Of a stretch of 64,000 bases of DNA, positions 1 through 14,518 are shown piece by piece. The notes under the pieces are model-generated. The model did no database searches and was not told the DNA's origin. It worked only from the letters and a program-made list of their open reading frames with translations. Made by a program: the position numbers and the translations under genes. The DNA is from Pseudacidovorax intermedius. Its GTDB lineage: Bacteria > Pseudomonadota > Gammaproteobacteria > Burkholderiales > Burkholderiaceae_C. The stretch covers positions 1 to 64,000 of the forward strand of contig NZ_QQAV01000002.1 in assembly GCF_003350475.1 (NCBI RefSeq), written 5' to 3'. Position 1 is the stretch's first letter, and every line of letters begins with the position of its first letter.

Positions 1-792
1 CTGGGCTCGAACGTCGTGCACGATGTCCTCTCCGGCGTGACGCAGCAGGTGGACTACGTGACCGACGGCGTGGCGAACATCACCGACAGTGCGCTGGGCG
101 GCGATCTGCTGGGCGGCGTGCTCAGCAGCGACGGCCTGCTGGGTGGGCTGACCGGTGGTGATCTGCTGGGTGGTGACCTGCTCGGCGGTGTGCTGGGCCA
201 GGACGGTCTGCTGGGTGGGCTCACCGGCGGTGACCTGCTCGGCGGCATCGCCGGCGACACCGGCATCGTGGGCGGCCTGCTCGACACCGTGGCCGGCGAT
301 GGCGGCCTGCTGGGCGGCGTGACCGGCGGCGAGCTCCTGGGGGGCGATCTGCTGGGGAATGTGCTGGGCGACGATGGCCTGCTGGGCGGCGTGCTGGGCG
401 CCGCCGACGGTGCCAGCGGTGCCGGCGACCTGTTGAACGCCGTGCTGGGCGACAACGGCGTGCTCGGCGGCGCGCTGGGCAGCGTCACGGGCAGCGACGG
501 CGCCGCCGGCGGCCTGCTGGACGGCGTCTCCGGCAGCAGCGGCGTGGTTGGCGGTCTGCTCGACACGGTGGCGGGCGACCACGGCGTGGTCAGCGGCGTG
601 CTCGACACCGTCGCCGGCAGCAATGGCCTGCTGGGCAATGTCCTGGGTGGCAGCGGCGGCAGTGGCGGCCTGGTGGGCGGTCTGCTCGGCGGCCTCGGCA
701 GCGTCACCGAGCCGGTCTCCAGCGGCACCGGTGGCAGCACCACCAGCCCGGCCAGCCCGGTCGGCGGCCTGCTGCACAACCTGCTGGGCTGA
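1..792 (+). CDS. Gly/Leu/Asp repeat protein (LLGG repeats), 5' partial
   Basis: The reading frame is open from base 1, so the true start lies upstream; the GTG at 16 is only the first possible start inside the window. The visible part is low-complexity: ten LLGG tetrads plus related VLGG and VVGG units, separated by Asp-Gly and Thr-Gly steps (for example GGLTGGDLLGGDLLGG). It has no lysine, arginine or cysteine, and is strongly acidic. The Gly/Asp/aliphatic composition recalls exported repeat proteins, including RTX-like beta-rolls and proteins annotated as collagen-like, but the exact RTX nonapeptide is not seen. It sits 77 bases before an OmpA lipoprotein and upstream of a type I secretion trio. 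Export by that trio is inference; no function is recognised. Confidence 0.7.
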   Translation: MGSNVVHDVLSGVTQQVDYVTDGVANITDSALGGDLLGGVLSSDGLLGGLTGGDLLGGDLLGGVLGQDGLLGGLTGGDLLGGIAGDTGIVGGLLDTVAGDGGLLGGVTGGELLGGDLLGNVLGDDGLLGGVLGAADGASGAGDLLNAVLGDNGVLGGALGSVTGSDGAAGGLLDGVSGSSGVVGGLLDTVAGDHGVVSGVLDTVAGSNGLLGNVLGGSGGSGGLVGGLLGGLGSVTEPVSSGTGGSTTSPASPVGGLLHNLLG

Positions 793-869
793 TGAGTCCG
801 GCGCCCTCGTCGTCCCCTGTCGAGTGGCCGGCCCGCCGTGCGGGCCGGTCGTTGACCAAAGGTCCCACC

Positions 870-1382
870 ATGATGAAGTCACTCCAACGCGTCAGCCTTG
901 CGCTGTCGGTCTCCGTGCTGCTGGCCGCCTGCGGCGCGGCGCCCAAGGACGGCAGCGAAGACACCACCTACTACTACGCCAATCCCAAGGGCCGCAGCGC
1001 CGTGGCCCCGGTGCAGGCGCCGCCCCCGCCACCGGCCCTGTCGGGGCCGGCGGGCGTGGCCCGCATCGTGTACTTCGACTTCGACAAGTACGACGTCAAG
1101 CCCGAGTACCGCTCCATCGTCGAGGCCCATGCGCGCTACATGCGCGAGCGCCCGCAGGCCCGCGTGGTGCTCGAAGGCCACACCGATGCGCGCGGCGGCC
1201 GTTCGTACAACGTGGCGCTGGGCCAGCGCCGCGCCGAGGCCGTGCGCCAGGCCATGCAGCTGGGTGGCGTGCCGGGCGAGCGCATGGAGGCCATCAGCTG
1301 GGGCATGGAAAAGCCCGCCTCGCTGGAGAAGACCGAGGCCGGCTACCAGCTGAACCGCCGCGTCGAGTTCGTCTACCGCTGA
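870..1382 (+). CDS. OmpA/Pal-like outer-membrane lipoprotein
   Basis: This 170-residue protein has a lipoprotein signal (LLAAC, lipidated Cys about residue 21), a short Pro-rich linker and a C-terminal OmpA domain from about residue 65. The domain shows VYFDFDKYDVKPEY, then LEGHTDARGGRSYNVALGQRRA and a terminal LNRRVEFVYR, the usual peptidoglycan-binding signature of Pal-type proteins. The frame is open back to 792, but the ATG pair at 870/873 immediately precedes the signal peptide, so 870 is chosen. It would tether the outer membrane to peptidoglycan. It is not the standard tol-pal copy, because no tol genes are adjacent; the context suggests a role with the secretion operon downstream. Confidence 0.88.
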   Translation: MMKSLQRVSLALSVSVLLAACGAAPKDGSEDTTYYYANPKGRSAVAPVQAPPPPPALSGPAGVARIVYFDFDKYDVKPEYRSIVEAHARYMRERPQARVVLEGHTDARGGRSYNVALGQRRAEAVRQAMQLGGVPGERMEAISWGMEKPASLEKTEAGYQLNRRVEFVYR

Positions 1383-1395
1383 CCGGCGCCGCACG

Positions 1396-4300
1396 ATGGA
1401 CCAGGACGTGAGCGCCCCCGCCCGGCCGGGCGCCGGGGGGGCGGTCTTGCCGCTCGCCGGCTCGCCCGGGCAGCCTGGCGAGCGCGGCTTTGCCGCCCAG
1501 CTGGCCGCCTGCCGCGAGAAGGTGGCGGTGATGTGCGCGGCCGTCCCGGCGCCGTACCCGGCGTTCACGCTCTTCTTTTCGGTCACCGACGGCCAGCGCC
1601 GTGCGCAGGTGCTGCATGCGACGGGCACCAGCTTCGACGAGGCCTGGCAGGCCGGCGCACGGCGCGCCAGCGCCTTCGTGCTGCGGCAGCAGTTGCAGTC
1701 GCCCTGGCTGCGGGTGGACTGGGTGCAGGGCGTGGGCGAACTGCCCGTCGGCGAGTTCGAGCAGCAGCTGCGCCAGGTCAAGCGCAACTACTTCCGCCTG
1801 GGGCTGGCCTTCGACGGCGCCTTCGCGATGGCCCTGACCGAGCAGGAGATCAATGCCAACGCGCTGCTCTACGGAGGCCCCGAGATCCCGCATGCGGTCA
1901 TCAACCGCCACAACCTGGGCCTCTACCTGCAGCAGCGCTACCGCGGCCAGCCGGCCCCGGCGCTGGAGGCGCAGGACAAGGTCTATCTGCTGGCCCTGGG
2001 CGGCGTGTTCTGCCAGGAGGACGGTGTGGTGCACCGCCTGGCCGGCCACGGGCTGGACACCGGCCGCCGGCAGGTGCCGCCGCTCGATGCCGCCGCGGCG
2101 CTGGAGCTGGTGCGCACCGGCTCGGCCCACCTGGCCCGCCAGGTGCAGGACAACGGCCGCTTCGTCTACGGCTACTTCCCCTGCTTCGACCGGCTGATCC
2201 CCAGCTACAACACGCTGCGCCATGCCAGCTCGCTCTATGCCATGGCCGAGGCCTGGGAGCTCACGCGCGACCCGGCGCTGCGCCAGGCCATCGACCGCGG
2301 CCTGCAGCACCTCACGCAGCAGCTGGTGCGCGACTACACGCTGGCCGACGGCCGCGCCGCGGCCTTCCTGGTCGACGTGGGCGACGAGATCAAGCTGGGG
2401 GGCAACGCCGTCGCGCTGCTGGCGTTGGTCAAGTACAGCGAAGTGCTGGGCACCGACGAATGGCGGCCGCTGATGGAGCGCCTGGCCACCGGCATCGCCG
2501 CCATGCAGGACGCCGCCACCGGCCGCTTCGTGCATGTGCTGCATGCGCAGGACCTGTCGGTGAAGGAGGTCTCGCGCATCATCTACTACGACGGCGAGGC
2601 GGCCTTCGGCCTGCTGCGGCTGTATGCGCTGACGCGCGACGAGCGCTGGCTGGCCGTGGTGGAGCGGGCCTTCGAGCACTTCATCGGCCAGCAGCACTGG
2701 CAGGCGCACGACCACTGGCTCAGCTACAGCGTCAACGAACTCACCCGTTGGCGGCCGCTGGAGAAGTACTTCCGTTTCGGCATCCAGAACGTGGCCGGCT
2801 ACCTGGACTTCGTGCTGGACCGCAAGACCACCTTCCCCACGTTGCTGGAGCTGATGATCGCGGCCCAGGCCATGATCCGCCGGCTCGAGGGCATCCCGGC
2901 CCTGATCCACCTGCTGGACGAGATCGACCTGGAGAAGTTCGAGCGCGCGCTGCACTACCGCGCCAACTACCTGCAGAACGGCTATTTCTGGCCCGAGATG
3001 GCGATGTACTTCCGGCGGCCCTCCGCCGTCGTCGGGTCCTTCTTCATCCGCCACCATTCCTTCCGCGTGCGCATCGACGACGTGGAGCACTACCTGTCGG
3101 GCATGGTGGCCTACCACCGGCTGATGGCCGAGCGCGAGGCCGCCGGACGCACCGCGCCCGAGTCGGCGGCCCGTGGCGTGCGCTGGTCGGCGGCCGAGCT
3201 GGCCCGCATCACCGGCGGCGACTGGGTGGTCGCGCCGCCCGAGGGCTGGCATGCCATCGGCATGGCGACCCGGCCCTTCGCGCAACCGCAGCGCCTGCTG
3301 TGCCTGCACGACGAGCGCGCCGGCCGCGCACCGGCGCCGCTGGAGCTGGACGGCCTGCGGCCCGCCGCGGCGGTGCTGTGCGCCCATCCGGCGCCGCACC
3401 TGCACCGCGGCCTGCCGGTGCTGCGGGTGGAGGACGTGCGCCAGGCCATGCTGGACCTGGGCGCCCAGGCGCGCGCGCAGTTTCCGGGCCGTGTGGTGGC
3501 CGTGGCCGGCAATGCCGCGCGCGACACGACCGCCGCCATGCTGGTCAAGACACTGGGCGCCTGGGGCGAGGTGGGGGAGCCCGAGACCCGCCAGCGCCTG
3601 CCGCTGGGCGTGGCCTGGGCCCTCAGCTGCCTGCCGCAGGAGGCCGCCACCTGGGTGCTGGAGCTGGGCCAGGCGCCCGCGCCGGCCATGGTGCAGGTCG
3701 CGCGGCCACAGGTGCTGGTGCTCGCCGTCGATCCTGTCGAGCCAGGCGGCGGCGACATGCAGCGCAAGATGGCGCAGCTCGTCGAGGCCATGCCCGAGGA
3801 CGCCTGCGTGGTGCTGTGCCGCGACATGCCGGGCTACGACGGCCTGGCCTTGCTGGCGGCGCGGCGGGGCCTGCGCGTGTTCGACCATGGCAGCCATCGC
3901 GATGCTCAGGTGCGCCTCACGGCGCTGGGGCATGGCGAACTGCGCGCCGAGGTCGTGGGCAGCCCGGTGCGCATGAAGCTGCAGGCCGTGGGCGCGCATG
4001 TGGGCCTGGGTGCGACCGCGGTGCTGGCCACCGTGCTGGCCCTGGAATGGCAGACCCAACTGGGCGCGGCGCTGGTGGCCCTGGGCGGCTTCGAGCGGCA
4101 TGAATGGCGCGGGCCCGTGCTGGAAGTGCCCATCGCCGGCGGCAGCTTCCACTTCGTGGACGAGACGCACGATGCCAATCCCACCTCCATGCGGGCCGCA
4201 CTCGCCCTGCTGGCCCAGGCGCCCTGCGCGCCGAGGCAGCGGGTGGCGGTGCTGGGCGAGATGCAGGGCCTGGGCGCGGAGTCGCAGCGCCACCACCTGG

Positions 4301-4536
4301 CGCTGCAGACCGAGGTGCTGGCTGCGCAGCCGGGCCGCGTGCTGCTGTGCGGGCCGCTCATGGGCCCTCTGGCCCAGCGGCTGAAGCCGCTGGTGCCGGT
4401 GCGGTGGTTCAACGACGCCGCCGAGCTCGTGGCCGCCTTCGGCGACATCGTGGCGCCGGGCGACTGGGTGCTGGCCAAGGGCGGCGCGCGCATCGGCCTG
4501 GCCCGCCTCGCCAAGGCCGTCAAGGCGATGGCCTGA
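1396..4536 (+). CDS. Alpha-toroid / MurF-like fusion protein with degenerate ATP loop
   Basis: This 1046-residue protein has two recognisable parts. Residues about 230-580 are rich in paired helices and aromatic motifs (FVYGYFPCFDRLIPSYNTLRH, IIYYDGEAAFGLLRLYALTRD), resembling an alpha/alpha toroid of the six-hairpin glycosidase type. Residues about 690-1046 resemble MurF: an LELG element, DETHDANPTSMRAAL at about 922-936 (MurF-type D-x-Y-N-A-N-P-x-S-M), VAVLGEMQGLG, and a terminal GDWVLAKGGARIGLARL. The nucleotide loop is GNAARDTT (705-712) where active Mur ligases have G-T-N-G-K-T-T, so the P-loop lysine is missing. It starts 13 bases after the OmpA gene and precedes the type I secretion genes. 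I cannot assign a reaction; ligase activity is doubtful unless another ATP site exists. Confidence 0.8.
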   Translation: MDQDVSAPARPGAGGAVLPLAGSPGQPGERGFAAQLAACREKVAVMCAAVPAPYPAFTLFFSVTDGQRRAQVLHATGTSFDEAWQAGARRASAFVLRQQLQSPWLRVDWVQGVGELPVGEFEQQLRQVKRNYFRLGLAFDGAFAMALTEQEINANALLYGGPEIPHAVINRHNLGLYLQQRYRGQPAPALEAQDKVYLLALGGVFCQEDGVVHRLAGHGLDTGRRQVPPLDAAAALELVRTGSAHLARQVQDNGRFVYGYFPCFDRLIPSYNTLRHASSLYAMAEAWELTRDPALRQAIDRGLQHLTQQLVRDYTLADGRAAAFLVDVGDEIKLGGNAVALLALVKYSEVLGTDEWRPLMERLATGIAAMQDAATGRFVHVLHAQDLSVKEVSRIIYYDGEAAFGLLRLYALTRDERWLAVVERAFEHFIGQQHWQAHDHWLSYSVNELTRWRPLEKYFRFGIQNVAGYLDFVLDRKTTFPTLLELMIAAQAMIRRLEGIPALIHLLDEIDLEKFERALHYRANYLQNGYFWPEMAMYFRRPSAVVGSFFIRHHSFRVRIDDVEHYLSGMVAYHRLMAEREAAGRTAPESAARGVRWSAAELARITGGDWVVAPPEGWHAIGMATRPFAQPQRLLCLHDERAGRAPAPLELDGLRPAAAVLCAHPAPHLHRGLPVLRVEDVRQAMLDLGAQARAQFPGRVVAVAGNAARDTTAAMLVKTLGAWGEVGEPETRQRLPLGVAWALSCLPQEAATWVLELGQAPAPAMVQVARPQVLVLAVDPVEPGGGDMQRKMAQLVEAMPEDACVVLCRDMPGYDGLALLAARRGLRVFDHGSHRDAQVRLTALGHGELRAEVVGSPVRMKLQAVGAHVGLGATAVLATVLALEWQTQLGAALVALGGFERHEWRGPVLEVPIAGGSFHFVDETHDANPTSMRAALALLAQAPCAPRQRVAVLGEMQGLGAESQRHHLALQTEVLAAQPGRVLLCGPLMGPLAQRLKPLVPVRWFNDAAELVAAFGDIVAPGDWVLAKGGARIGLARLAKAVKAMA

Positions 4537-4639
4537 TCGGGTCGCCTTGGCATTTACCCGGCTTTCTGTCTTCAACCTGACCTGCATCCGCCCCAGTGAG
4601 TAACAATCTGTTCATGGTTTTCAACATCGACGGCCGCCC

Positions 4640-6424
4640 ATGCTGAAGTACCTGCTTCCCAGCCAGCTGGTCGCCCCCTCGGTCACGGCCGAGGGCGATG
4701 AGGCGGCCAGCCCGCATGCCGACGCGCTCGGCCGGGCCTTCGGCGCGGCCTATCCGGCGGTGCGGCAGGCGGCTTGGTGGTCGGTGCCGATCAGCCTGTT
4801 CGGGCTGCTGCCGTCGATCTTCCTGCTGCAGGTGTACGACCGCGTCATCTACCGCAGCGGCACCTCCACGCTGTGGGCGCTGTTCAGCGGCATCCTGTTC
4901 TTCCTGGCCATCGAGTTCGTGCTGCGCAGCCGCCGCTCGCGCCTGCTGCGCGATGCGGGCGCCACCATCGACCACGGCATCTCGGGCGCGCTGCTGCAGT
5001 CCATGCTCAACCGGCCGCTGCGGGCGCTGGAGGAGCGGCCCGCCGCCGCGTGGTTCCTGTTGTTCCGCGACGTGGGCGCGGTCCGCATGACGCTCAGCAG
5101 CGGCCTCGCGCAATCGATCTTCGACCTGCCGATGGCGCTGTTCGCGCTGGTGGTCATCGGCATCGTGGCGCTGCCGGTGCTGCCGGTGGTGGTGGTCTTC
5201 CTGGGCGTGATGTCCTTCCTGGCCTGGTGGTGGGCCGACGAGGTGCGCGCCGGCCGCGTCGAGGAAACCGAGCGCAGCCGCAACCTGGAGCGCATGACGG
5301 CCGAGATCTGCGCCGCGCGCGAAACGCTCAAGACCCAGGCCAACGACGGCCCCACCATCGAAGGTTGGCGCCAGACCTACGACCACTGGCTGGGCGAGAG
5401 CTTCCGCAAGAACGGCGAGATCGAGACCGCCCGCGACGGCACGACGGTGCTGCTGACCATCTTCTCGACGGTGGTCATCACCGTGGGCGCGCTGTCGGTC
5501 ATGGAGCAGTGGATGACCGTCGGTGGCCTGGTGGCGGCCAACATGCTGGCCATGCGGGCGCTGCAGCCGGTCGCCGGGCTGGTCTCCAACTGGCGCGCGC
5601 TGGCCACGGCGGGCGAGGCGGCCAGCCGACTCGAAAAGGTGCTGTCCGAGCCGGTGGAGCGCGAGCCCAGCGGCCTGAACCTGCCGCAGCCCCCCGGGCT
5701 GGTGCAACTGCGCGATGTGGACTTCCGCTTCCAGCCGCAGGGCCGCCCGGTGTTCGAGAAGCTCGACCTGGCCATCGGCCCGGCCGGCCTGCATGCGGTG
5801 GTGGGCCGCAATGGCGCCGGCAAGTCCACGCTGGTGCGGCTGATCTGCGGCCTGTACGCGCCCAGCGCCGGCACCGTCAGCCTGGGCGAATACGACCTGG
5901 CCCAGTTCGGCCGCGACGACCGCGCCAGGTGGATCAGCTACCTCTCGCAGGAGGTCTACTGGTTCGCCGGCGAGATCATCGAGACCCTGCGCCGCTGCGC
6001 CCCCGGCCACAGCGACGAGCAGATCGTGGCGGCCTGCAAGCTGGCGGGCGCACACGACTTCGTCTCGCGCCTGCCCGCCGGCTACCGCACCCGCATCGGC
6101 GAGGGCGGCACTGGCCTGTCGGTGGGCGAGCGGCGCAAGCTGGGCCTGGCGCTGGCCTTCCTGCGCAAGCCCTCGGTGCTGGTGCTGGACGAGCCCAGCA
6201 ACGACCTCGACTTCCACAGCGAGCGCCAGCTCATCAACACCCTGGTGGCCATCGCCCGCACGCGCACGGTGATCGTGGTGACGCATTCGCTGCGCATGGT
6301 GGCCGCCGCCAACAACGTCTACCATGTCACTGGCGACGGCAGCGTGGAGCAGGGCGCGCCGGCGGTGATGGTGCCCCGCCTCTTCGGCAGCCAGCGCGCC
6401 GACCTTCAGCAGGTGGCCGCATGA
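4640..6424 (+). CDS. Type I secretion ABC transporter ATPase/permease
   Basis: This 594-residue inner-membrane exporter has an N-terminal transmembrane domain (about 40-320, with hydrophobic stretches such as SGILFFLAIEFVL and ALFALVVIGIVALPVLPVVVVFL) followed by a nucleotide-binding domain. Walker A is GRNGAGKST (389-397), the signature is LSVGERRKLGL, Walker B is VLVLDEPSNDLD and the H-loop is VIVVTHS. There is no N-terminal C39 peptidase, so it belongs to the PrtD/LipB-like class rather than the peptide exporters. A 103-base gap separates it from the preceding gene, and it overlaps the HlyD gene by ATGA. It would power export of an unfolded protein, plausibly the repeat protein encoded at the start of the operon. 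Confidence 0.93.
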   Translation: MLKYLLPSQLVAPSVTAEGDEAASPHADALGRAFGAAYPAVRQAAWWSVPISLFGLLPSIFLLQVYDRVIYRSGTSTLWALFSGILFFLAIEFVLRSRRSRLLRDAGATIDHGISGALLQSMLNRPLRALEERPAAAWFLLFRDVGAVRMTLSSGLAQSIFDLPMALFALVVIGIVALPVLPVVVVFLGVMSFLAWWWADEVRAGRVEETERSRNLERMTAEICAARETLKTQANDGPTIEGWRQTYDHWLGESFRKNGEIETARDGTTVLLTIFSTVVITVGALSVMEQWMTVGGLVAANMLAMRALQPVAGLVSNWRALATAGEAASRLEKVLSEPVEREPSGLNLPQPPGLVQLRDVDFRFQPQGRPVFEKLDLAIGPAGLHAVVGRNGAGKSTLVRLICGLYAPSAGTVSLGEYDLAQFGRDDRARWISYLSQEVYWFAGEIIETLRRCAPGHSDEQIVAACKLAGAHDFVSRLPAGYRTRIGEGGTGLSVGERRKLGLALAFLRKPSVLVLDEPSNDLDFHSERQLINTLVAIARTRTVIVVTHSLRMVAAANNVYHVTGDGSVEQGAPAVMVPRLFGSQRADLQQVAA

Positions 6425-7734
6425 AGAACGACCTGCCCCAGGTCCTGCTGCGTGCCGAGGACCGCGCGCCGATGCCGGACGGTCCGGGCCGTCGCCGACG
6501 CTGGCTCATCGGCGGCGCCATCGGCGTGCTGGCCGTGGTGGCGCTGGCCTTTCCCATGGAGACCGTGGTGGTCGCCAACGGCAAGGTGATCCCGTCCGAC
6601 CGCGTGAAGTCGATCCAGCATCTGGAAGGCGGCATCGTGCGCGCCGTGCTCGTGCGCGAGGGCGAGCGCGTCAAGGCCGGCCAGCCGCTGGTGGAGATCG
6701 ACCTGGGCGGCAGCGGCCTCAACCTGGAAGAGCTGACCGCCCGCCAGGCCGCCACCCAGGCCGCGCGCCTGCGCCTAACGGCCGAGAGCCGCGGCGAGCC
6801 ATTGCGGCGCGAGAGCTTCCCGCCCGCCATGGATGCCGACGTGGTGCGCGGCGAGCTGGGCGCGTACCAGGCCCGCTCGCTGGAGCAGCGCGGCATCGCC
6901 GCCGGCGCCCAGGCGGCGCTGGAGGCCGCGCGCAGCAAGCAGATGGAGCAGCAGGCCAAGGTGGCCGGGCTCACGCAGCGCGTGGCGCTGGCGCGCAAGG
7001 AGCTGGAGATCTCGGAGCAGCTGGCGGCCGAGAAGTTGATCGGCCAGCTGGAGGTGCTGGACAAGCGCCGCGAAGCCGAGGTGGCCGGCGCCGAACTGGC
7101 CGTGGCCCGGCAGGGCGTGGTCTCGGCCGCTGCCGCCATCGGCGAGGCGCAGGCCAAGCTGGCCGAGGCCGAGGGCAGCTTCCGCCGCCGCGCGTCGGAT
7201 GAACTTTCCACCGTCGAACGCCAGCTCGCCAGCCTCAACGAGGACCTGCAGCGCGCCCGCAACCAGCGCTCGCGCACGGTGGTCACGGCGCCGGGCGAGG
7301 GCATCGTCAAGGGCCTGCGCAGCGGCAGCCCCGGCTGGGTCATCAAGCCCGGCGAGCCCATCCTGGACGTGGTGCCCGACGACGCGCAGGTGATGGTCGA
7401 GGCGCGGCTGAGCCCCAACGACCGCGGCTTCGTGCATGCCGGCCAGAAGGCCCGCGTGAAGATCACCGCCTACGACTTCCTGCGCTACGGCACGGTCGAC
7501 GGCCGCGTCGATCTGGTGGCCGCCGACGCCGACCGCGACGCCACGCTGCCCACCGCGCCGCCCTACTACCGGCTGCAGGTGAGCACCAGCGCCTCCCACG
7601 TGGGCCGGCCCGAGAACCGCATCACGCCCGGCATGGAGGCGGAGGTCGACCTGATCGTGGGCACCGACCCGTTCATCTGGTACATCCTGCGGCCGGTGCT
7701 GAAGCTGCAGCGGGAGGCCTTCCGAGAACCATGA
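6421..7734 (+). CDS. HlyD-family periplasmic adaptor of type I secretion
   Basis: This 437-residue membrane fusion protein has a short cytoplasmic N-terminus with an Arg-rich patch, one transmembrane segment at about residues 28-48 and a split lipoyl-like domain (GKVIPSDRVKSIQHLEGGIV). A long Ala/Glu/Gln-rich coiled-coil hairpin spans about 95-275, followed by a beta-barrel region (ARLSPNDRGFVHAGQKARVK) and the C-terminal ITPGMEAEVDLIVG motif. It would bridge the ABC exporter to TolC. It starts inside the stop codon of the ATPase gene, and its own stop overlaps an ATG at 7731 that is probably not the TolC start. Confidence 0.94.
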   Translation: MKNDLPQVLLRAEDRAPMPDGPGRRRRWLIGGAIGVLAVVALAFPMETVVVANGKVIPSDRVKSIQHLEGGIVRAVLVREGERVKAGQPLVEIDLGGSGLNLEELTARQAATQAARLRLTAESRGEPLRRESFPPAMDADVVRGELGAYQARSLEQRGIAAGAQAALEAARSKQMEQQAKVAGLTQRVALARKELEISEQLAAEKLIGQLEVLDKRREAEVAGAELAVARQGVVSAAAAIGEAQAKLAEAEGSFRRRASDELSTVERQLASLNEDLQRARNQRSRTVVTAPGEGIVKGLRSGSPGWVIKPGEPILDVVPDDAQVMVEARLSPNDRGFVHAGQKARVKITAYDFLRYGTVDGRVDLVAADADRDATLPTAPPYYRLQVSTSASHVGRPENRITPGMEAEVDLIVGTDPFIWYILRPVLKLQREAFREP

Positions 7735-7850
7735 AGCACCCCCAGGCTCCGCGCTTCGCGCTCCGCCACCCCCCTCCAGGGGGCACGTCCAGCGGCCCGG
7801 CAAAGCCGGTTCCGCGGACATCCACGAATGGCCTGCTCCGCGGCCTTCTG
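7735..7850 (+). repeat. Dispersed intergenic repeat, copy A
   Basis: The bases between the HlyD gene and the TolC signal peptide match, in inverted orientation, the stretch at 16825-16925 between tadC and the TPR gene. Shared cores include GGCAAAGCC followed by G/A and GTTCC, and TGGCCTGCTCCGCGGCC, in the same order and at similar spacing, plus a run of C/G around 7770. It also contains short inverted elements. The frame is open through it, so an upstream TolC start at 7731 is possible on paper, but the encoded Pro/Arg-rich peptide looks like translated repeat. Confidence 0.6.
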
Positions 7851-7883
7851 AAAGACGGCCGTTCAGCCCCATATGGCGTGCAA

Positions 7884-9725
7884 ATGCGTGTGCGCACCGC
7901 CATCGCCCTGGCCTGCGTGCTCGCGTGCCTGCCCGCCGCCGCCCAGGTGCAGATCCGTCGCCAGGGCGTGCCGGTGGCCGTGTACGACGAGAACGGAATG
8001 CGGCTGCTGACGGCGACGCGGCTGTCGATGCCGGAGGCGCCCGCGCCGACGCCGGTCGGTGAACGCATCGCGGCGGTGGCGCCGGCGTCGCTGCGTGGCG
8101 CGTCGGCACCCATGCTCTCCGCAGCGCCCGCTGCACCGGCGCCCGCGCCCGGCTCACTGCCCGTGACGCCCGCCTCCACGCCATCGGCTGCGCCTGCAAC
8201 CGCACCCGCGGCATCCGCGCCCGCCGGCGCGCCCGGCCTCGTCATCACCGGCCAGACCCAGCGCTTCAAGCAGTCGCTGCGCACCCTGGCGCTGGAGCAT
8301 CCCGAAGTGCTGGCCGCCGATGCCGCCGCCGCCAGCAGTGGCTTCGAGGTCGAGGCGGCCAGGAAGGCGCGCTATCCGCGCTTCAAGGTCGGCACCGCCA
8401 GCGGCACCTACAACAGCGGCCGCGAGGGCGCCTCCAGCGAGACCTACACCCTGCTCACCGCCGAGGCCCGCATGAGCCTGATCGACGGCGGCGCCATGAG
8501 CGCGCGCGAGCGGGCCGCCGAGGCCGGCAGCCGGGCCCAGAGCGAGGCGGTCAAGACCACCTCGCAGAAGGTCGTGCTCGACGCCCTGACCGCCTACATG
8601 CAGGTGCAGCGCTTCGACCTCAAGCGCGAGGTCGCCCGCCGCTCCACCCGCATCGTGCAGGACCTGGCCAAAAGCGAGGAGCGCCGCGTCGCCCTGGGGG
8701 GCGCCGGCCAGAACGACCTGCGCATGGCCAGCGCCCGCCGCGCCGGCATCGCCGCGCGCGAGGCGGACTTCGACGCCCAGCTGGCCGAGGCCATCGCCAA
8801 GTTCGACAGCTACTTCCGCTTCGTGCCCGATCCGGCGCGCCTGCCGCTGCTGCGCACGCCGCCGGCCTGGCAGATCGCCTCGCAGCAGGAGGCCATCGCC
8901 CGCGCCGAATCGCGCAGCACGGAGCTGACCGAAGCCCAGGAGCGCGTGGCACGCGCGCGGGAGCTGGTCGAGCAGCAGGAGGCCAGCGTCTGGCCCACGG
9001 TGGATGCCGTGGTGGTCAAGACCAAGGACCCGCGCGGCGTGACCACCTCCGAGCCCACGCGCGCCGCGCTGGAGCTCAACTGGAACTTCGGCAGCGGCTT
9101 CGACCGCCAACTGCGCGTCAAGTCGGCGCTGGCCGAGGTGCAGACGCAGGAGGCCAAGCTCGACGGCGTGCGCCGCAACCTGCTGGAGCTCACGGCCTCG
9201 GCCTGGGGCCGCACCGCCAGCGGCCGCGAGCGCGAGCAGCAGCTGCGCGAAGCCGTGTCCGAGTCGGGCGAGGCCTTCCGGGGCCGCAGCCGGCTGCTGG
9301 AGTTCGGCCGCGAGACGCTGCCCAACGTGCTCGATGCGCAGCTCGACCACAACAACCTGCTGCTGGACTACATCGATGCCGTGTTCGACCTGCGCGTCAC
9401 CGAGTTCCGGCTGGCCCGGGCCACCGGCGAGCTGCGCGTGGAGCCCGACGGCGTCAGTCCCTGGATCGACGAGATCGTGGGCGGGCCCGCGCGTTCGCTG
9501 CTGGGCCCGGACGGCCTGGGCATGACGCAACAAGGCACACCTGCCGTGCCCGCCGGCCCGCGGGCGCGGGCCGTGGTGCAGCAGCCGATGGCGCCGCCGG
9601 CACCTTCCGCGGCGCCGTTGCGGGGCCCAGACCTGAAGGCCGCGCAGCGCGCGGGCGGCGTGGCGGTACCGGCGCAGAGCCTGCCCCAGCGCATGGCCCT
9701 GCGCACTGCTTCGCGTCTACAGTGA
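7884..9725 (+). CDS. TolC-family outer-membrane efflux/secretion protein
   Basis: From the ATG at 7884 the 613-residue product begins with a clear signal peptide (MRVRTAIALACVLACLPAAAQ). The frame stays open to an ATG at 7731, but those 51 codons fall in a dispersed repeat, so 7884 is preferred. After an Ala/Pro-rich linker (about residues 50-120), two repeats of long helices typical of TolC follow, including EARMSLIDGGAMSARERAAEAG and the second-repeat LELNWNFGSGFDRQLRVKSAL. A C-terminal Ala/Pro-rich tail is unusual for TolC itself but common in type I secretion outer-membrane partners. It completes the secretion trio with the two preceding genes. Confidence 0.9.
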   Translation: MRVRTAIALACVLACLPAAAQVQIRRQGVPVAVYDENGMRLLTATRLSMPEAPAPTPVGERIAAVAPASLRGASAPMLSAAPAAPAPAPGSLPVTPASTPSAAPATAPAASAPAGAPGLVITGQTQRFKQSLRTLALEHPEVLAADAAAASSGFEVEAARKARYPRFKVGTASGTYNSGREGASSETYTLLTAEARMSLIDGGAMSARERAAEAGSRAQSEAVKTTSQKVVLDALTAYMQVQRFDLKREVARRSTRIVQDLAKSEERRVALGGAGQNDLRMASARRAGIAAREADFDAQLAEAIAKFDSYFRFVPDPARLPLLRTPPAWQIASQQEAIARAESRSTELTEAQERVARARELVEQQEASVWPTVDAVVVKTKDPRGVTTSEPTRAALELNWNFGSGFDRQLRVKSALAEVQTQEAKLDGVRRNLLELTASAWGRTASGREREQQLREAVSESGEAFRGRSRLLEFGRETLPNVLDAQLDHNNLLLDYIDAVFDLRVTEFRLARATGELRVEPDGVSPWIDEIVGGPARSLLGPDGLGMTQQGTPAVPAGPRARAVVQQPMAPPAPSAAPLRGPDLKAAQRAGGVAVPAQSLPQRMALRTASRLQ

Positions 9726-9753
9726 GGGGCGTACCTTCCCTCGTGCCTTCTCC

Positions 9754-10923
9754 TTGAACGACGCCGATCCGATCCTGCGACGCCGCCGCGTCGAGGCGCT
9801 CTACGACACCGTGCCCGTCTCCGGCTTCATGGGCCTGGCGGGCGCCGCCATGCTCGCCAGCGTCTTCTGGCGGCCCGACCGGCATGCGCTGGTCATGGGC
9901 TGGCTGGTGGCCTCCTGCCTGCCCATCTTCGCCCGCATGGGACTGCGCCTGGCGTACCGGCGCAGCCGCCAACGGGACGATGTCGGCCTGCGTTGGGTGT
10001 GGGCCTCGCTGGTGCTCATGGCCCTGACCGGCCTGGCCTGGGGCATCGGCCTGGGCTGGATGCTGGTCCACGGTGAGGCGGACGAGGTGCCGGTCGTGAT
10101 CGGCACGGCATTGGGCGCGGTGGCCATGACCATGACCAACATGGCGTACTGGCAGACCCATGCGGCCTTCCAGGTGCCCATCCTCGGCTCGCTGGCGGTG
10201 GCGGTGCTGATCGCGCGGCCTGGCTTCGCGCATGTGCTCTCGGTGGCGTCGGTGGTGCTCTGCCTTGCCCAGCTTGCCGTGGCGCGGCGCATGGGCCGCA
10301 TCTATGTCGACGCGCTGCGCGTTTCGCTGGACAACGAACGCCTGGCGCAGGACCTGGCCACGCGCAGCCATGCGCTCGAGCAGGCCAACTTCGAACTCGA
10401 ACTGCTCAGCCGGGCCGATCCGCTCACAGGCCTGGCCAACCGACGCAGCTACATGGAATGGCTGGAGACCGTGTGGGCGCGCGCGCTGCGCGAGGACACC
10501 CCTCTGGCCCTGCTGTCCGTCGACGTCGACCGCTTCAAGCTCTACAACGACGCCCACGGCCACGGTGCAGGCGACCGCTGCCTGCAGGCGGTGGCCTCGG
10601 CGCTGGCCCATGCCTGCCGCAGCGAGCAGGACCTGGCGGCGCGGCCGGGCGGCGAGGAGTTCGCCATCGTGCTGCCGGCCACCCCGTTGCGCGACGCGAT
10701 GCAGGTGGCCGAGCGGGTGCGCCAGGGCGTGATCGATGCCTCGCGCGATGCCGGCTGGGCACTGCCTGCGGGCGTGACGGTCAGCGTGGGCGTCGCATGC
10801 CGCCATCCCCGCGACGGCGGCGGCATCGAGGACCTGCTTCGCGAAGCCGACCAGGCGCTCTACCAGGCCAAGGACCGCGGACGCAACCGCGTCGAGGCTG
10901 CATCGGTCGCCGTCTCGGTCTAA
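9754..10923 (+). CDS. Membrane diguanylate cyclase (GGDEF)
   Basis: This 389-residue protein has about five to six hydrophobic segments in the first 190 residues, a short helical linker (DNERLAQDLATRSHALEQANFE) and a GGDEF domain starting at RADPLTGLANRRSY. The active-site loop is GGEEF (299-303), so cyclic di-GMP synthesis is expected. The inhibitory site Arg-x-x-Asp, five residues before the motif, reads Ser290-Glu-Gln-Asp293, so feedback inhibition at that site is probably lost. No PAS, GAF or EAL domain is seen. The start is a TTG at 9754 with no strong ribosome site; an internal ATG near 9829 would remove part of the first segment. It ends 9 bases from the convergent regulator. Confidence 0.9.
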   Translation: MNDADPILRRRRVEALYDTVPVSGFMGLAGAAMLASVFWRPDRHALVMGWLVASCLPIFARMGLRLAYRRSRQRDDVGLRWVWASLVLMALTGLAWGIGLGWMLVHGEADEVPVVIGTALGAVAMTMTNMAYWQTHAAFQVPILGSLAVAVLIARPGFAHVLSVASVVLCLAQLAVARRMGRIYVDALRVSLDNERLAQDLATRSHALEQANFELELLSRADPLTGLANRRSYMEWLETVWARALREDTPLALLSVDVDRFKLYNDAHGHGAGDRCLQAVASALAHACRSEQDLAARPGGEEFAIVLPATPLRDAMQVAERVRQGVIDASRDAGWALPAGVTVSVGVACRHPRDGGGIEDLLREADQALYQAKDRGRNRVEAASVAVSV

Positions 10924-10932
10924 TTCCCCGGC

Positions 10933-12321
10933 TCAGGACGATTCCGGCGCCTCCGGCACGCCCGGCTCGCCATCCATGATCTGGTACTTGCGCATCTTTT
11001 CCCACAGCACCTTGCGGCTGATGCCCAGGTGCTGGGCGGCGTCCTGGCGGCGCCAGTCGTTCACTTCCAGCGCCGCGATGATGCGGTTGCGCTCCGTCGC
11101 GTTCCAGCCGCGGCGCTCCGGCGGGGCGGCGGATGGCACCTCCACCGGCCGCGCCAGCGCCAGGGCGCGCTGGATCAGCGTGGGCTCCCAGCTCTTGGTC
11201 TGCCGCGCGATCACGCCCACCCGCTCGGCCAGGTTGCGCAGCTGGCGCACGTTGCCCGGGAAGGTGGCCGAGGCGATGGCGTCGGTCAGCCAGTGCGGCG
11301 CCTCGCCCAGCTCCTGCAGCAGCGGCTCGCCCAGCACGCCGGTCAGCACGGCCTTGAAGAGGGCGATCTTGTCGGCCTCGCCGCGCTCCTCCAGGCTGGG
11401 GATGCGCAACTCGATCACCGCCAGGCGGTAGAACAGGTCGGCGCGGAATTCGCCTGCGGCCACCATCTCGCGCAGGTTGCGGTTGGTGGCCGCCACCAGG
11501 CGGAAGTCCACCCGCAGCGGCGTGGCCGAGCCCAGGCGGGTGACCGCGCCGTCCTCCAGCACCCGCAGCAGCTTGACCTGCTGGTAGCGCGGCAGGTCGC
11601 CGATCTCGTCCAGGAACAGCGTGCCGCCCGTGGCCTGCTCGAAGTAGCCGCGGTGTGCATGCACGGCGCCGGTGAAGGAGCCCTTGGCATGGCCGAAGAA
11701 CAGCGACTCGAACAGCCCGTCCGGAATCGCGCCGCAGTTGACCGCCACGAAGGCACCCTTGCCGTAGGTGGGATGGCCATGGTGCAGCAGCTGCGCCACG
11801 CGCTCCTTGCCCACGCCGGTCTCGCCCTGCACCAGCACCGAATGGTCGCTGCCCGCGAAGGTGTTCACCTCGGCCAGCAGCGCTTTCATGGGTTCGGACA
11901 GGGCCACCAGCTCGCCGGGCGCCGGCGCCTCGGCCGCGCGGGCGCGCAGCTGGCGCACCAGCTTGGCGACCATGGTGCGCAGCTCGGCGCAGGTGAAGTC
12001 GTAGGGCAGGACGTGCAGGTACTCGGGCGGGTAGTTGCGCGGATCGCGCTCGCGAGTGCTCGCGCCCACCCAGATCACCGGCATGCCCTGCAGCAGTTCG
12101 GTGGCATGCGGCAGGCCGCCGCCGTCGATGGCCGTCACGCTCATCACGGCCAGCGACGGACGCAGCGGCTGCTCGCGCTCGGGCAGGCTCATGAAGCGGT
12201 CATCGGCGCGGATCACCTCCACGTCGAAGCTGGACATGCAGCGCGCCACCCGGTCCAGGATGTCGGCCTTGCCCTCCCACACATAGAGGTCGAGTTCGTC
12301 GAAGGCGGGGGAGACGCTCAT
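10933..12321 (-). CDS. Sigma-54-dependent transcriptional activator (Fis type)
   Basis: This 462-residue protein has an N-terminal domain of about 125 residues with receiver-like patterning, but no acidic pair near its start and no clear phospho-acceptor Asp. A central AAA+ domain follows, with Walker A GETGVGKE (166-173), a sigma-54 contact loop GSFTGA (214-219, Ser instead of the usual Ala) and Walker B GGTLFLDE (232-239), plus a Fis-type helix-turn-helix near the end ([20 protein letters not shown]). It is the last co-oriented gene after the Tad pilus cluster, 34 bases beyond the TadG-like gene, so it may control pilus or surface genes. The input signal is unknown; the domain looks like a degenerate receiver. 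Confidence 0.9.
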
Positions 12322-12355
12322 GAGTGCGCGACGTATTTGGCCAGTCGTTCAGGAA

Positions 12356-14518
12356 TCAATACACAAGCTTGGTTGTGTGGCAGCTCACGGAATGGAGCTT
12401 GACGTCCGTCCGACCCAACTCAATGCCCAGCACGTCGCCAAGCAGGTTTGACAGTGCTGCCCCCACCGCATCAAGCGCAGGGCTCAGCAACTGCAGCAAT
12501 GGCCCCAGGATCGTCGATAGAAGCGGTGTGCCTGTGCCTTTGGGATCAAGGCTCAATAGGTTGGACACTAGATTCAGAACACTTCCCAGGAGCCCGCCCA
12601 CCAATCCGTCTTGAGCCGGCGTCTGCAAGGACTGGATGAGCTTGGTGCGAATGCATGTGGCACGAGATGACCCAAGGCATGTGTTGGTGCTTGATGTCCA
12701 CTCCGACACCATGTCGCTCGAAAGCAAGCCCAGTACGGCGGGACGCTTCCAGTTAACGCCATCTGCAGTCAGCAGGTTTGCTACTCCAGATACATTCGTT
12801 GCACCTGCTCTTCGCAGGTAGTCATCGGCCATGCTTGTCGCAATCTCCACCGTGCTCGCTCGCTGCGCGGGTTGGCTGCCGTCATCACCTGTTGCGCTTA
12901 AGCCGAGCGCCAGCAGTTGATTGAAAAGGCTCACGACGGTGCTTCCAATGGGCAGAGCGTTGCGTTGGGTTGTTTGCGAACTGTCCTGCGAAGGTGGAGG
13001 CGACAACGTAAGGGACTCTGTGCGATCAAGTGCGGGCACTTGGACTTTTCCGTATAAAAGGTCGATGCCCATCGCACGCACGAAGGTCATCTGACCCAGC
13101 GTCGCATCGGTGCACACATCGGTCTTGGACCAGAGCACTGAACTGGGGATTTGGCCGATACAGGCGTTGAGCACTGCCGATTCGACGGTAATGGTTGCCT
13201 GCGGGGGGGCGGCAGCGCAATCCAATGCGGTCAGTTCTCCTTTCGCGTTGATCACGTCGATCACGATAGGAAGGTCGATGCTCGTGCGCAGTATCCCGAG
13301 CAAGCCGCTTAAAGCACTGGCAGACGATTTGATGGATGCGACGATCCTCACCTGGGCGTTGTAAGCCATGGTGCCGACATCACCGATGCCGATGGATGGC
13401 GGCTCAATCACTCGTGCTTCCAGGCTGATGCCGAGCGTTGGCGCACTTACGGGCAGGGAAAGCGCGTTCTTGGACGTCGCAACGCCGACTGAGGTTGTGA
13501 GCAGTTCCAGCGCATTGAGCTGCACTCCCAGGGCGGCCGCAGCCGTCGCAGTGCTGATGTTTCCAAAGAGTCCTCTGAGCCCTGTCCCTGATGCAGCATC
13601 GGTGCCCAGTTGAATGAGAAGTTGGCTCACGTCCAAGGTCGCGCCCAGCGCGTTCAAGAGGCTCGCATTCGCGGAGAGAAGCAGATTGCCATCTGTACCT
13701 TGGTTGGAGGCCAAAGTGGCAATCGCGCTCAGCAGGTCACCCAACTGAACTTTGTTCGCCGCCAACAAAGCGTTGAGGTCGCCCACAGTCATGTCTGCGC
13801 TGACGGGGATCCCCAGTTCTTGAAGCAATCCGGACGGGGTGAGGGATACGTTGGCGAGGCCGGAGTAGCAGCCAACGCACAAGCCATTTACGTTGATGCC
13901 CGCCAACTTCAGCGTCGATATGAGCGGCGCGTCCGGGTTGCTTGTGATCAGCTTCGAGCCAACGGAAAAGGCCGCAGAGGGGGAATCCAGCGCAGCGATC
14001 GCTTCGACGGTAATTTCCGTGGACCGATTGCCCGGAAGAACTGGAAGCATGAGTGCCGGTGTCCTTCGAATACCTACGCGCACGGCATTGAAGGGTGGCA
14101 GGGCCTGGAAATGACGATCCTTGGCGTCACCGCGGGTGGGGTCCCAGTTGCCGCATTCCACGTCGCCGGCCGCCAGGCTGAACTCGTGCGGCAGGTTCCG
14201 GTTGGCATCCTGCGTGCCGCTGCCATTGGCATTGGAGAGCGCCGCCTGCTGGGCCGCGGTGCAGCTGGTGGGCTGCACCTGCTGCGCGCCGGCCAGCGCG
14301 GCCAGGTCGGCGGCCTTCTGCAGGTCGCGCTTGGTCAGCAGCATGTAGCCGAGCTCAGTCCCGAGCAGCCCGATGATCAGCACGGCCAGGGCCAGGGTCG
14401 CGTTGATCACGACAGCGCCGCGCTGGCCAGCGCGACCAGGGCATTGCTGCAGCAGGCGGCGGGCCATGAAGACGCCTGCGCCATGGCACCGGCGGATGGA
14501 GGCTGGGCGGCGCGTCAT
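12356..14518 (-). CDS. TadG-like Flp pilus assembly protein, compositionally mosaic
   Basis: This 720-residue protein has an N-terminal TadE/G-like segment (RGAVVINATLALAVLIIGLLGTELGYMLLTKRDLQKAADLAALAGAQQ), a membrane anchor followed by the motif typical of Tad proteins. The rest is a long extracytoplasmic region with several Leu/Ser/Thr/Gly-rich stretches that I do not recognise. The start used is the ATG at 14518; an ATG at 14467 (MARRLLQQ) is equally plausible. The first 140 codons match the very GC-rich surroundings, while the region from about 14100 down to 12356 has clearly lower GC and different codon use. This suggests that the surface-exposed part was exchanged or evolved separately. 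It lies one base after the TadE-like gene in the pilus operon. Confidence 0.82.
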   Translation of the reverse strand: MTRRPASIRRCHGAGVFMARRLLQQCPGRAGQRGAVVINATLALAVLIIGLLGTELGYMLLTKRDLQKAADLAALAGAQQVQPTSCTAAQQAALSNANGSGTQDANRNLPHEFSLAAGDVECGNWDPTRGDAKDRHFQALPPFNAVRVGIRRTPALMLPVLPGNRSTEITVEAIAALDSPSAAFSVGSKLITSNPDAPLISTLKLAGINVNGLCVGCYSGLANVSLTPSGLLQELGIPVSADMTVGDLNALLAANKVQLGDLLSAIATLASNQGTDGNLLLSANASLLNALGATLDVSQLLIQLGTDAASGTGLRGLFGNISTATAAAALGVQLNALELLTTSVGVATSKNALSLPVSAPTLGISLEARVIEPPSIGIGDVGTMAYNAQVRIVASIKSSASALSGLLGILRTSIDLPIVIDVINAKGELTALDCAAAPPQATITVESAVLNACIGQIPSSVLWSKTDVCTDATLGQMTFVRAMGIDLLYGKVQVPALDRTESLTLSPPPSQDSSQTTQRNALPIGSTVVSLFNQLLALGLSATGDDGSQPAQRASTVEIATSMADDYLRRAGATNVSGVANLLTADGVNWKRPAVLGLLSSDMVSEWTSSTNTCLGSSRATCIRTKLIQSLQTPAQDGLVGGLLGSVLNLVSNLLSLDPKGTGTPLLSTILGPLLQLLSPALDAVGAALSNLLGDVLGIELGRTDVKLHSVSCHTTKLVY

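Follow-up and report, generated by a model that had tools for sequence, protein, structure and literature searches.

A toroid–MurF fusion in a probable adhesin export operon of Pseudacidovorax intermedius and its relatives beside Asp-dipeptide surface proteins

The operon and its conservation in Comamonadaceae

The window (the whole 64,000-nucleotide stretch analyzed here) runs from base 1 onward of contig C2 of the Pseudacidovorax intermedius assembly, which comprises 5.98 Mb in 29 contigs. Six co-oriented open reading frames (ORFs) lie at its start, all of which were verified and gave Pfam and NCBIfam matches as expected (Table 1). The six-gene arrangement described in the earlier note was therefore upheld, except that the contig end truncates the ORF of the repeat protein; the adhesin fragment that remains had no NCBIfam match. 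No tol gene was found among the nine ORFs typed at 1–14518 beside the Pal-like lipoprotein. A sigma-54 activator gene and a TadG-like gene (10933–14518, minus strand) were observed to be kept beside the operon in relatives (counts in Table 1).

Table 1. Coordinates of features typed at the start of the window
Feature	Position	Strand	Remarks
LLGG-repeat adhesin, C-terminal end	1..792	+	5' part missing at contig end; putative T1SS cargo
Pal/OmpA-like lipoprotein	870..1382	+	Lipobox LLAACG; TIGR02802 cut-off passed (127 vs. 125.35 bits); possible anchor
Toroid–MurF fusion, 1046 aa	1396..4536	+	
N-terminal alpha/beta domain of the fusion	1483..2070	+	AF2
(alpha/alpha)6 toroid, 2-epimerase/GH76 fold	2077..3144	+	
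MurF-like half	3163..4533	+	P-loop (about 3493–3547) without GKT
T1SS ABC permease/ATPase	4640..6424	+	Pfam/NCBIfam
HlyD-type adaptor	6421..7734	+	TIGR01843 above cut-off
TolC-type outer membrane protein	7731..9725	+	PF02321
GGDEF protein	9754..10923	+	PF00990; 3' of TolC in Pseudacidovorax relatives L013, L016, L063
Sigma-54 activator, conserved neighbor	10933..12321	-	PF00158; 38/45 loci
TadG-like protein, conserved neighbor	12356..14518	-	PF13400, PF09977; 35/45 loci

The repeat family also occurs at two further contig ends of the window genome, C1 and C17, and the assembly is seemingly broken at C1, C2, and C17 because of the adhesin repeats. The C1 end holds an N-terminal adhesin half with a 52-residue Asp-X tract, and the C17 end holds another C-terminal adhesin end. 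Next after this second copy (G000 C17:1-1197(+), locus L010) lies a gene for an RpoH-like sigma factor. A join of C1 to C2 is favored by the synteny seen in P. intermedius L015 (response regulator, adhesin start, pal), and a join of C1 to C17 by an exact 94-base end overlap, so the Asp-X tract of the window genome sits on a contig whose join has support each way. A toroid gene adjoining an Asp-X-tract surface protein was seen in relatives. The adhesin is encoded beside T1SS genes, as for BapA/LapF T1SS adhesins; NF045619 (BapA/LapF C-terminal domain) had no match in the C1 or C17 adhesin parts.

A scan of genome contigs yielded 63 loci, 45 of them from Comamonadaceae, with gene order taken from tblastn positions. 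The genes are conserved together in this family: pal lies upstream of the toroid gene on the same strand at all 45 loci, the adhesin N-terminus or start was present at 31/31 loci where the sequence reaches more than 6 kb beyond the toroid on the upstream side, and ABC, HlyD, and TolC genes were present at 40/40 loci with more than 7.5 kb downstream. The complete six-gene order was seen at 30/45 loci, and a Mur match was absent from 8/45. Variovorax paradoxus, which lives in soil, has this operon as well. The 31 adhesin reading frames encode 618–1,779 aa, except for L036 (369 aa, broken frame); the L054 frame is also broken. Apart from L036, each of these frames has no fewer than 17 LLG motifs as well as a dipeptide run. 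This conservation favors the repeat protein as the cargo of the exporter, as the earlier note had proposed, with secretion itself a prediction. The lack of joint conservation that the note had named as a first refutation was not observed.

Domains and fold of the toroid–MurF protein

In the predicted structure, the fusion contains an (alpha/alpha)6 toroid of the 2-epimerase/GH76 fold, in agreement with the toroid–MurF reading of the earlier note, and the 50 Foldseek matches listed with the whole model as query were of the Mur type only. The toroid is 14–15% identical to N-acylglucosamine and cellobiose 2-epimerases and GH76, and PF07221 (AGE 2-epimerase) had no match in the fusion at E 0.01. 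Catalysis in AGE 2-epimerases involves a histidine pair. Across 19 toroid sequences from both Gram types, the invariant residues include Glu, Arg, and Trp.

The other half matched the MurF C-terminal ligase domain (PF02875, 42.2 vs. 28.4 bits), and the fusion missed the MurF equivalog and subfamily cut-offs (NF010693, 149 vs. 544; TIGR01143, 117 vs. 288.6). Its P-loop reads AGNAARDTT where TGSAGKTT is expected. The MurF domain is degenerate, as had been supposed, and an active MurF-type ligase was ruled out for the window genome. Since the Mur half has no ATP loop, only the toroid function should remain there.

Other neighbors and fusions of the toroid were observed. An alpha/beta-hydrolase-like gene, possibly an editing enzyme, recurs beside toroid–Mur genes (L045:13089-13982(-), L049:8845-9891(-); weak Pfam matches), with tblastn matches in L095, L096, L097, and L099 and an alpha/beta hydrolase annotation in L185, L188, and L192. 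In P0170, P0173, and P0178, the toroid is fused to CapA (PF09587) and a Mur ligase or GT4. A Sulfitobacter toroid–Mur gene lies amid condensation-domain and polyketide synthase genes (L179:8869-25596).

Asp-X tracts and toroid partners

Pseudomonas and Agrobacterium carry toroid–Mur genes beside a different T1SS, the proteins of which are 24–32% identical to those of the window, and a BapA/LapF-type adhesin. In an environmental Pseudomonas toroid–Mur protein, the P-loop is intact. The common feature found between these adhesins and those of Comamonadaceae is the (DA)n tract, which was not in view at one of six Pseudomonas loci (L044, adhesin cut by contig end). Two other links were rejected: LLGG repeats turned up in no adhesins other than those of Comamonadaceae, and the T1SS type both diverges as above and occurs in tract-less BapA regions that have no toroid. 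The Gly/Asp beta-roll-like repeats, which the earlier note had taken as key, thus give way to the Asp-X tract as the common part.

The toroid is rare, occurring in 3/300 genomes of the order and 14/398 of the phylum (window genome counted in both). Sixteen of the 17 toroid matches outside the window were taken as a new sample; the one left out (G649 C16:291895) is apparently the same as L036. Tracts of 110–1036 residues were found in 6/16 toroid neighborhoods, and in 20/20 control stretches drawn from six of these genomes, the tract was at most 4 residues long (p 0.004). In one of the six tract-positive neighborhoods, a toroid-only gene has as its immediate upstream neighbor a gene (L109:5784-8954(+)) for an autotransporter-like protein whose (Asp-Gly)n tract spans 178 residues. 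Any BapA-type match occurred in 139 genomes, 14 of them above the cut-off, and 14 regions were taken. No toroid was present in 13 of these, where the tract was at most 8 residues; in six of the 13, the adhesin is visible together with the complete set of three T1SS genes, L168 has the adhesin, TolC, and ABC in view, and the genome of region L167 has a toroid elsewhere (L106). The region with a toroid (G460, also L102) has a tract of 1904 residues and, like seven of the toroid-less 13, falls in family f57.

Toroids were also detected by tblastn in 54 plasmid records (Agrobacterium 18, Staphylococcus 15, Enterococcus 6, Acinetobacter 4, others). The first five plasmid neighborhoods all contained a tract (264–754 residues), and among 17 plasmid neighborhoods, a tract of at least 30 residues was present in 15, L184 and L186 being those without.

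Over 97 loci, a tract of 30 residues was missing in 34. At twelve of these, all from Comamonadaceae, the sequence before the toroid is shorter than 5 kb, a further eight (L064, L069, L070, L099, L103, L105, L106, L108) have less than 5.1 kb on at least one side, and 14 have no such tract despite at least 5 kb in view on both sides (L044, L061, L062, L065, L066, L067, L075, L096, L097, L100, L101, L104, L184, L186). The 14 include most ATP-grasp loci and several giant fusions, so the tract link is unproven for the ATP-grasp branch; no tract was found within the stretches examined at Selenomonad ATP-grasp loci and Neorhizobium L061. The Selenomonad toroids (L062, L064–L067, L070, L075) are fused to or beside a YheC/D-type ATP-grasp, with no Asp-X tract in view; at L075, an RTX protein is encoded before the toroid and two GT92-type genes follow it. 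At Acinetobacter L184, a frame lying among adhesin-like frames some 17 kb before the toroid has a 16-residue tract, and the locus was still scored negative; A. baumannii BAP is described as having a 38-aa insertion made mostly of DA repeats (PMC4647330).

The enzyme partner of the toroid was compared with the tract, counting tracts no shorter than 30 residues at the 97 loci plus five added by hand; many of the loci come from close relatives and are not independent. Tracts were Ser-major in 6/6 loci with a GT partner, Ala-major in 43/46 with a Mur partner (exceptions L036, L181, and the Comamonas locus L058, with an intact P-loop and Ser 0.98), and Ala in the single case with an ATP-grasp partner (1/1). 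At the 15 loci where no partner was found, 13 tracts were Ala-major, one Gly-major, and one Ser-major (L171, which is the L102 locus cut before the GT). In staphylococci with intact Mur genes, Ser made up 16–39% of the tract. Compared by genus, the counts were 4:0 vs. 1:8 (p 0.007, hand counts). Mur and ATP-grasp enzymes join carboxylates to amines, and Ala has no reactive group; the simplest prediction for (DA)n tracts is therefore amidation of Asp. We know of no modification of a DA tract.

Proposed role and comparison with known systems

We consider it probable that the operon serves to produce, modify, and export a large surface adhesin and that its 1046-aa protein belongs to a toroid family dedicated to Asp-X tracts. 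The adhesin would comprise an N-terminal module, an acidic (Asp-X)n spacer, and LLGG repeats, and would exit through the ABC–HlyD–TolC exporter; the Pal-like lipoprotein may tie the adhesin or the exporter to the wall. The toroid would be cytoplasmic and would bind or act on the tract before export, with the chemistry supplied by a fused or adjacent partner. Where X is Ser, this would be a GT4 glycosyltransferase acting on Ser; where X is Ala, it would be a Mur or ATP-grasp carboxylate–amine ligase, the Asp carboxylate being the only reactive group.

More tentatively, and with rather less than even confidence, we propose that a cross-phylum system chemically decorates the Asp-X tracts of surface proteins by means of a shared toroid and a swappable partner set by X, with GT4 adding sugar to Ser and Mur/ATP-grasp amidating Asp in (Asp-Ala)n. 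Such a product would be a ribosomally templated analogue of cyanophycin, and in the Pseudacidovorax variant, the ligase would have decayed to leave the toroid alone.

It seems unlikely that the toroid instead acts without catalysis, as a chaperone or pilot by which the long charged tract is kept in solution and ready for export, with the partner enzymes as accessories. Toroid-only loci do retain DA or DG tracts (13 Ala-major and 1 Gly-major of the 15 without a partner), and Comamonadaceae keep the toroid where the ligase has decayed or is absent, but the fold is of an enzyme type with Glu/Arg/Trp invariant in both Gram types, the toroid was repeatedly fused to enzymes, and one pilot would have to serve three export routes. 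That the fusion makes or processes a separate polymer (a polysaccharide or peptide capsule) and is merely co-inherited with adhesins is less likely still: the sugar-epimerase/GH76 fold, the CapA+Mur and CapA+GT4 fusions, and the 14 loci with no tract in view would fit it, but the tract association spans phyla and export routes, partner follows tract, and the GtfC data concern the surface protein Pls (PMC5230774). The earlier note had offered processing of a surface polymer or of the cargo; because the toroid follows the Asp-dipeptide tract across unrelated export routes, tract modification on the cargo is the better guess, and a new surface polymer is disfavored.

A wholly undescribed system, as had been suggested, is not supported, since adhesin export by T1SS is ordinary and the staphylococcal relative GtfC has been studied. 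The new element is the association of a toroid family found across phyla with Asp-dipeptide tracts, together with a testable partner rule; our searches of open-license PMC articles turned up no account of the toroids as a family, of their association with Asp-Ala tracts, or of an adhesin as the substrate of a Mur ligase. Relatives of the toroid occur from staphylococci to pseudomonads and often lie beside surface proteins in which Asp alternates with one other residue over long stretches, which points to a mostly unrecognized form of modification of these proteins. Staphylococci, Listeria, rhizobacteria, and others have surface proteins with long acidic dipeptide tracts, and these are commonly regarded as spacers. 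Given a toroid family that tracks them across phyla and export routes, and a partner type from which the chemistry can be predicted, it becomes directly testable whether and how they are modified. These results also suggest that many genes annotated 'poly(glycerol-phosphate) alpha-glucosyltransferase' or 'Mur ligase family protein' form one unrecognized family.

Among known enzymes, AGE 2-epimerases and GH76 have the (alpha/alpha)6 fold in common with the toroid, whereas the toroid is 14–15% identical in sequence, adds an N-terminal domain, and has no PF07221 match. MurF and cyanophycin synthetase share the Mur ligase architecture of the window fusion, and the use of an Asp side-chain carboxylate as acceptor is a proposed likeness to cyanophycin, by analogy only; in contrast, the fusion has no P-loop, and the tract is ribosomally made rather than a synthesized polymer. 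BapA of Paracoccus denitrificans, as a BapA/LapF-type system, likewise has T1SS genes beside an acidic Asp-Ala-rich adhesin, with 891 DA repeats and no toroid reported (PMC5588039), whereas the adhesin parts of the window genome lack an NF045619 match and have LLGG repeats.

Among Gram-positive systems, SdgA and SdgB modify SD repeats (PMC5588039), sesJ is described as always having two GT genes alongside (PMC7029136), and Lmo1799 has 226 Ala-Asp repeats (PMC8687577); our locus L177 is presumably that of Lmo1799. The closest comparison is with S. aureus, where Ser residues in the SD repeats of Pls are glycosylated by gtfC and gtfD, located downstream of pls (PMC5230774). Both were required with the genes of strain 1061; with those of COL, gtfD alone gave weak glycosylation, and GtfC was not strictly required. 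GtfC has 538 aa, is encoded directly downstream of pls, is regarded there as a glycosyltransferase, is not classed as a GT by CAZy, and is given 69% identity to S. epidermidis homologues (PMC5230774). The S. haemolyticus toroid is likewise 538 aa, directly downstream of pls, and 69% identical to S. epidermidis homologues, and the toroid beside pls at L176 is 35% identical to that of the window. Length, position, and these identities suggest that GtfC is a toroid-type protein. The toroid encoded in a record named Staphylococcus carnosus (P0254) and the one from S. haemolyticus share 64% identity; a gtfC/gtfD homologue was reported absent from S. carnosus TM300 (PMC5230774). Like the toroid family, the GtfC/GtfD–Pls system would have a toroid-type protein next to a surface protein whose tract is built of Asp dipeptides. 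It differs in its GT partner and Ser-containing tract, whereas the window fusion has no GT4 partner and carries a decayed MurF-like half in its place, with an Ala tract and T1SS export.
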